Below are positions 27,341 through 27,869 of a stretch of 64,000 nt of DNA, piece after piece. Location: assembly GCA_027486405.1 (NCBI GenBank), contig JAIXPD010000014.1, positions 83,962-147,961 of the forward strand, read 5' to 3'. The notes under the pieces are model-generated. The model had not been told where the DNA came from. It did no database searches and worked only from the letters and a program-made list of their open reading frames with translations. A program made the translations under genes and the position numbers. The DNA comes from Azospirillum sp. GTDB lineage: Bacteria > Pseudomonadota > Alphaproteobacteria > Azospirillales > Azospirillaceae. Each line of letters opens with the position of its first letter. Position 1 is the first letter of the stretch.

Positions 27341-27357
27341 CGGTGTGTTAAGGTTCG

Positions 27358-27446
27358 CAATTCCCGCCATCCGGCGGGATGGACCTACTGCCCCGTTTGT
27401 CGAGACGGACGCCATGGGTTCTCCTCCGCAAACGCGGAGACTAACG
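27358..27446 (+). ncRNA. creA: Putative creA antitoxin guide RNA gene: psiR1 (27358-27385), psi-spacer (27386-27418), psiR2 (27419-27446)
   Basis: Two degenerate copies of the CRISPR repeat, start-to-start 61 bp (equal to array period). psiR1 stem CCCGCC-ATCC-GGCGGG + ATGGACC versus repeat CCCCAC-ATGC-GTGGGG + ATAGACC; psiR2 stem CTCCGC-AAAC-GCGGAG. All stem changes are compensated. Confidence 0.85.
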
Positions 27447-27456
27447 GTGCAGTGTT
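27422..27456 (-). promoter_or_regulatory. Predicted CreA target protospacer (27422-27453, minus strand) with 5'-AAC PAM (27454-27456)
   Basis: Guide ACTGCCCCGTTTGTC (27387-27401) versus minus-strand ACTGCACCGTTAGTC: identical at 1-5, 7-11, 13-15; mismatches only at 6 and 12. Confidence 0.8.
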
Positions 27457-27464
27457 AAGGGTGA

Positions 27465-27493
27465 TTGACAGCAAGCCCTAAAGGCACTACATT
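27465..27493 (+). promoter_or_regulatory. Predicted creT promoter, sigma70-like
   Basis: TTGACA (27465-27470), 17-bp spacer, TACATT (27488-27493); predicted TSS near 27500. Confidence 0.75.
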
Positions 27494-27499
27494 GCCCGT

Positions 27500-27807
27500 A
27501 CTGCAGAAGCAGTGGGGGAGGCTGAACGGCAATTCAGCCTCCCTGCAACCTTCCAGCCTTGGTACAGGAACGGAGGTGCGAGATGCGAAACATCTCCCGG
27601 TGAATATTTTAAGCGGTTCGCAATCGAACCGCAAGCCACGCGTCGTGGCTGGGCCGTTGGTTAAGGCCGAAAGCTCCTTTGCACAGGACAGTCGTGATCC
27701 CCGCCCAGACGCGGCATGACGCGACGTTCCGACAACTGGACAACACAGCTCTCACCCAGCGCCCGCGTCGTGGGAACAGGGAGGGTTTGACACCCCTCCC
27801 ATTTTTT
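27500..27807 (+). ncRNA. creT: Putative creT toxin RNA with six-codon mini-ORF
   Basis: Hairpin GGGAGGCTGAA-CGGCAA-TTCAGCCTCCC (27516-27543); SD GGAGG (27572-27576); ATG CGA AAC ATC TCC CGG TGA (27583-27603); hairpins GCGGTTCG-CAAT-CGAACCGC (27613-27632) and AGCCACG-CGT-CGTGGCT (27634-27650); terminator at 27779-27807. Confidence 0.7.
27779..27807 (+). terminator. Rho-independent terminator between creT and cas8e
   Basis: GGGAGGG-TTTGACAC-CCCTCCC-ATTTTTT. Confidence 0.85.
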
Positions 27808-27869
27808 GCCCGTTGATCCACAACCATTGATGTGGTTGTGTGTGGATCACTCACGGAAGAGCGAGGACA

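Follow-up and report, generated by a model that had tools for sequence, protein, structure and literature searches.

A probable type I-E CreTA module in the cas3-cas8e gap of an Azospirillum CRISPR-Cas locus

We found a probable CreTA module (a type VIII toxin-antitoxin), including a putative toxic RNA, in the gap between cas3 and cas8e of a type I-E CRISPR-Cas locus of Azospirillum. For the guide half, the best interpretation is that Cascade loaded with CreA represses a promoter, which we judge very probably correct. Toxicity of the CreT half is suggested by analogy. The original prediction had named the element a type I-E CreTA; its CreA half is strongly supported (guide, PAM-flanked target, promoter, and comparable I-E units), and its CreT half is only plausible by layout. 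Because the toxin role is drawn from architecture and published parallels, our confidence in the whole reading drops to the level of probable.

The window analyzed here is a 64,000-nt stretch of the Azospirillum genome (contig JAIXPD010000014.1). Azospirillum griseum, placed in the same genus, is the closest named relative at the type I-E locus. The plus strand of the window carries a complete locus (cas1-cas2-cas3-gap-cas8e-cas11-cas7-cas5-cas6e) flanked by two CRISPR arrays, array 1 at 22976-23308 on the minus strand and array 2 at 33033-33609 on the plus strand. The native array repeat is GTTTCCCCCACATGCGTGGGGATAGACC and the array period is 61 nt. The final repeat of array 2 (33582-33609) has two changes (ACACCCGT in place of ACATGCGT); such terminal repeat decay is usual in CRISPR arrays. 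The upstream neighbor of creA is cas3 (24605-27340, plus strand), and cas8e (casA) occupies 27870-29474 on the same strand. Cas8e matches TIGR02547 with an E value of 3e-18, just under the cut-off, and Cas6e scores 38.8 bits against its profile, under the cut-off of 45.2 bits. The remaining Cascade and processing genes (cas11e, cas7e, cas5e, and cas6e, 29471-32833, plus strand) are full length. The gap therefore lies in a type I cas locus whose Cascade genes are intact, as CreTA modules do. Measured at 27341-27869, it is 529 bp long, whereas at the remaining cas junctions neighboring genes lie 18 bp apart or overlap by 4 bp, in agreement with the contrast predicted originally.

The creA unit consists of two degenerate repeats and a spacer-like guide, all on the plus strand. 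The first repeat, psiR1 (27358-27386), is predicted to fold into a hairpin with the stem CCCGCC/GGCGGG (27363-27378) followed by an 8-nt handle ATGGACCT (27379-27386), which keeps most of the array handle (ATAGACCC/T). At 27358-27385, 18/28 bases are identical to the array repeat; outside the arrays no site in the window scores higher, and two others equal it at 18. The second repeat, psiR2 (27419-27446), shows 16/28 identity and carries the stem CTCCGC/GCGGAG (27424-27439). Each stem is 6 bp long and the two start at 27363 and 27424, exactly one array period (61 nt) apart. Degenerate repeats with a putative Cas6-recognizable hairpin and handle, as in CreTA, are thus present in the sequence, and the predicted repeat pair with an insert was found, the insert being the 32-nt guide psiS (27387-27418). 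The 61-nt RNA at 27379-27439 that had been proposed earlier corresponds to the predicted product of cuts at the stem bases. No promoter of its own was found for creA, and transcription from cas3 upstream probably reads into it. The spacer part of creA (27379-27424) can also fold on itself, the handle GGACC pairing with GGGUUC ahead of psiR2 (z = -4.69 for the whole unit); this might affect processing.

The psiS guide is partially complementary to a site on the minus strand (27422-27456), with the target running from 27453 to 27422 and the PAM AAC at 27456-27454. The site shares bases with psiR2, and 8 bp lie between its end and the -35 box of a predicted promoter. In type I Cascade, bases 6 and 12 of the guide are unpaired. 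With spacer position 1 defined as the base after the 29-nt repeat, psiS matches the target at positions 1-5, 7-11, and 13-15 (13/13 contact positions), and the only mismatches within the first 15 positions are 6 and 12. Seed positions 1-5 and 7-11 are critical for haloarchaeal CreA (PMC8501985). The partial, seed-centered match to a PAM-flanked site that is typical of CreTA is therefore found here, and the site occurs only once in the genome. When psiS was shuffled 20,000 times and compared with the rest of the gap, 25 shuffles gave a 10/10 seed match; in no case did AAC flank such a match, and no shuffle attained 13/13. The near-matching target with PAM noticed in the original prediction is thus confirmed at a level that no shuffle equaled. 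The PAM assignment can be compared with the arrays: in type I-E systems the last repeat base derives from the PAM, and in the arrays of the source genome, A. griseum, and Niveispirillum this base is a C or a T in nearly every repeat, which agrees with AAC. A comparison of the array 2 spacers with phages, as PAM confirmation, gave no match.

The target lies beside the only sigma70-like promoter found within the gap. This putative PcreT (TTGACA-17-TACATT, 27465-27493, plus strand; chance expectation for the region, 0.3) has its -35 box 8 bp from the PAM, so that the target stands next to the predicted creT promoter, as in CreTA. The putative CreT RNA would be about 308 nt long (27500-27807, plus strand; start deduced from the promoter) and would end at a predicted intrinsic terminator (27779-27807, plus strand) that separates it from cas8e. 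It is highly structured: 27495-27810 folds better than all shuffles (z = -3.65), most strongly over the first 109 nt (z = -3.97), and RNA folding gives a stable 12-bp hairpin at the 5' end (27515-27544, plus strand). A strong SD (GGAGG, 27572-27576) is followed after six bases by a six-codon ORF ATGCGAAACATCTCCCGGTGA (27583-27603, plus strand) that reads ATG CGA AAC ATC TCC CGG TGA and encodes MRNISR*. The AUG lies inside a 6-bp stem (GAGATG/CATCTC, 27580-27596), and in the predicted fold SD and AUG are both base-paired. Promoter, structured RNA with SD and six-codon ORF, and terminator were thus all recovered as originally described. Sequence and comparison support the repeats, the guide-target match, the PAM, the promoter, the terminator, and the RNA structure.

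An Rfam search of the gap at gathering and permissive thresholds gave only chance matches to eukaryotic families. A tRNA or tmRNA identity of the gap RNA was ruled out, since none was found in the gap. DNA relatives of the structured RNA were absent from 401 class-level and 84 family-level genomes and from the plasmid collection, and a scan of viral contigs for the SD-hairpin pattern gave 65 scattered matches, which were read as chance.

The original prediction had also invoked sequestration of rare tRNAs. This mechanism is weakly supported here because the mini-ORF avoids the rarest codons. AGA, ATA, and TTA are absent from the 5,242 codons of the window genes used as the codon usage base and also from the mini-ORF; these three and AGG, among the rarest in the window genes, are all missing from its six codons, and the sole uncommon one is CGA (3% of Arg codons). 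The mini-ORF is therefore not of the rare-codon kind that marks a tRNA-sequestering CreT. A start codon in a hairpin stem beside a strong SD is the layout of the CreT of Acinetobacter WCHA45, and by this likeness of sequence layout only, the Azospirillum RNA appears nearer to Acinetobacter CreT than to the tRNA-sequestering kind.

A 39-codon frame with a GTG start (27602-27721) overlaps the stop of the mini-ORF (GTGA), includes TTA, and has no Pfam match. It is quite improbable that the active product is a Cascade-repressed peptide, translated either as the 6-residue peptide or from this GTG frame in the manner of C. rodentium or CrePA. The CreT of C. rodentium does need translation and has no rare codons (PMC12055562), and the GTGA overlap would permit coupling. 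The 39-residue frame, however, runs through strong hairpins, resembles no Pfam family, and uses a codon (TTA) unused in the sampled window genes, and the RNA folds far better than shuffles. No ORF of the size of the KilA-N-type toxin gene that CreA controls in CrePA lies under the promoter.

We infer the transcription, processing, repression, toxicity, and mode of toxicity of the CreTA module as follows. The creA unit (27358-27446) would probably be co-transcribed with the upstream cas genes, and Cas6e would cut the transcript into a 61-nt crRNA-like RNA (27379-27439). CreA on Cascade would bind the partially matching site (27422-27456) beside the PAM AAC. The match is probably not extensive enough for interference but is sufficient for binding, and binding would block the promoter (27465-27493). 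Loss or inhibition of Cascade would free this promoter, and the roughly 308-nt CreT RNA would be made. This RNA would probably harm translation via its strong SD and hairpin-embedded AUG mini-ORF, and the cell would be penalized for the loss of cas8e-cas6e. Several points count against CreTA. The RNA had no relatives in the genomes and plasmids searched and is far longer than the toxins of C. rodentium (96-bp ORF) and Acinetobacter (33-bp ORF), its mini-ORF is free of the rarest codons, and its SD and AUG are predicted to be buried in stems. In addition, cas8e would have to be expressed from a separate promoter or by read-through of the terminator. It is a rather doubtful but conceivable proposal that CreT represents a novel type of long RNA toxin repressed by I-E Cascade, in which the 200-nt part after the mini-ORF is itself functional, e.g., by binding ribosomes or another essential RNA.

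In A. griseum, Cas8e is 94% identical, the gap is 147 bp, and the module is absent; only the final 63 bp before cas8e are alike. A module remnant in the A. griseum gap was rejected, as the alignment was no better than shuffles. Since the module is lacking next to so similar a Cas8e, it appears to be gained or lost as a cassette, and its absence fits an accessory element. The degenerate repeats and the absence from the sister species would also suit a minimal array that is decaying and no longer has a function, a reading we regard as very improbable: the mismatches in guide positions 1-15 all fall at the non-pairing positions 6 and 12, the stems are perfect, and the same pattern was found again in other loci.

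Among 54 type I-E loci searched, seven (including the source locus) have a hairpin, a seed match, and the PAM AAC, and all seven carry a handle of the form GATnnnCC. Equal-sized stretches inside cas8e, used as a control, gave 13 background hits, none with AAC. The psiR1 stems are not independent evidence, because the hairpin filter formed part of the psiR1 search; psiR2 stems, handles, and PAMs are independent. The psiR2 hairpins and the handles, neither of which was used as a filter, are kept across the AAC loci while the stem sequences differ. One check named beforehand was whether relatives conserve the psiR stems and the target, and they do. PsiR pairs of differing sequence, each with a guide-target match that has the PAM AAC and follows the same rule, also occur in the gaps of L007 and L008 (both from one other Azospirillaceae genus), of Niveispirillum sp. 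SYP-B3756 (L014/L005), and of a further genome of the genus Azospirillum (L009). A metagenome scan for Cas8e found no close relative.

In L014 the target is followed by a hairpin, GGGAGG, and an ORF of 14 codons that include ATA and AGA. The locus L069 (889-1210, reverse strand of the locus as fetched), from another alphaproteobacterial family, has the PAM AAG and a promoter TTGAAA-17-TATAAA. Its target is followed by a hairpin, AAGGAG, and ATG ACC ATC AGG ATA TAA, a five-codon ORF (MTIRI*) with AGG and ATA, and we consider it a clear CreTA candidate. The layout of hairpin, SD, and mini-ORF is repeated in L069 and L014; the sequences are not. In L007 (1197-1500, coordinates on the reverse strand), L008 (1198-1500), and L009 (1176-1480), CreA-like guides have AAC targets near cas8e with no clear toxin between. 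Automatic scanning for promoters gave no scored hit at the target in L007, L008, or L014.

In L007, L008, and L009 the target is only 150-200 bp ahead of cas8e. These three units are possibly CreR-type autoregulators; CreR is as likely there as CreTA because the target is so near cas8e. For the Azospirillum module itself, CreR-type autoregulation is the main rival to CreTA, and we judge it unlikely. The guide would then repress the promoter of the cas8e-cas6e operon and the structured RNA would be a leader with an attenuator and no toxin. The promoter is indeed directed toward cas8e, these three relatives show a short target-cas8e distance and no clear toxin, and a crRNA-like regulator of cas promoters is already known (PMC12737573). 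On the other hand, a strong intrinsic terminator parts the RNA from cas8e (read-through is possible), A. griseum lacks the whole region, and hairpin, SD, and mini-ORF follow one another in the RNA as they do in the L014 and L069 units.

Other arrangements were also observed. In two other I-E loci of the genus Azospirillum (L010, 1175-1455, and L012, 1130-1370), a psiR pair lies just before cas8e and overlaps the end of a small ORF. The small ORF is alike in both (MVVGISFEIRTRRYSLLVSLGFR... and MMLRFSFEVHVGHVSLFVLLGFR...) and has no Pfam match; the L012 protein has two database entries. The guide matches 9/10 seed positions of a PAM-AAC site in the 5' region of the small ORF, which is a candidate for a Cascade-repressed small protein. 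In L033 (2995-3330, a metagenome contig) and L071 (1280-1430, another alphaproteobacterium), CreA-like units with PAM AAC have the target upstream of creA (reverse order).

CreTA is known from I-B haloarchaea, I-F Acinetobacter, and, since 2025, I-E Citrobacter rodentium (PMC12055562), and a 2025 review asks whether it is widespread beyond type I-B (PMC12737573). Here, one guide rule and the PAM AAC recur in several alphaproteobacterial I-E systems, in the same cas3-cas8e slot and present or absent between close species. The rule and the PAM form a simple, testable signature for locating CreTA and CreR elements. A genus of soil and plant bacteria is now available for testing CRISPR addiction, and the long structured RNA may extend the short list of RNA toxins.

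The C. rodentium I-E CreTA was shown experimentally in a 495-bp cas3-casA gap (PMC12055562). As a type I-E CreTA has been published in this same gap, both module type and position were known and the Azospirillum module is not a new kind. The two share subtype, gap, a crRNA-like guide, and a PAM-flanked partial target by the promoter of an SD-led small ORF. In C. rodentium, creA is on the opposite strand, the PAM is ATG, and a 96-bp toxin ORF requires translation (PMC12055562); in Azospirillum, creA has the same direction, the PAM is AAC, and a putative long structured RNA has a six-codon ORF. The I-F CreTA of Acinetobacter WCHA45 (PMC10097628) is likewise in the cas3-cas8 (csy1) gap, with two psiRs, SD and mini-ORF, and the AUG in a hairpin stem; both hairpin and start codon are required in Acinetobacter CreT (PMC10097628). 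It differs in subtype (I-F), PAM (CC), a target downstream of the promoter, the lack of a canonical seed, a divergent creA, and a 33-bp mini-ORF. Haloarchaeal I-B CreTA (PMC8501985, PMC9458426) also has two degenerate psiRs and a guide that pairs at 1-5 and 7-11 and leaves 6 and 12 free, and H. hubeiense CreT has a six-codon ORF as well (PMC8501985, PMC9458426). It is, however, an archaeal I-B system with PAM TTC, in which rare codons (AGA or AUA) sequester tRNAs; the Azospirillum ORF is without these. CreR (PMC12737573) shares a crRNA-like RNA that guides the effector to a promoter of the cas locus, but it targets a cas promoter and has no toxin, whereas in Azospirillum a terminator parts the regulated RNA from cas8e. 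The particular features of the Azospirillum module are the AAC PAM, the target overlapping the second repeat of creA, the tandem orientation, and the long structured RNA.
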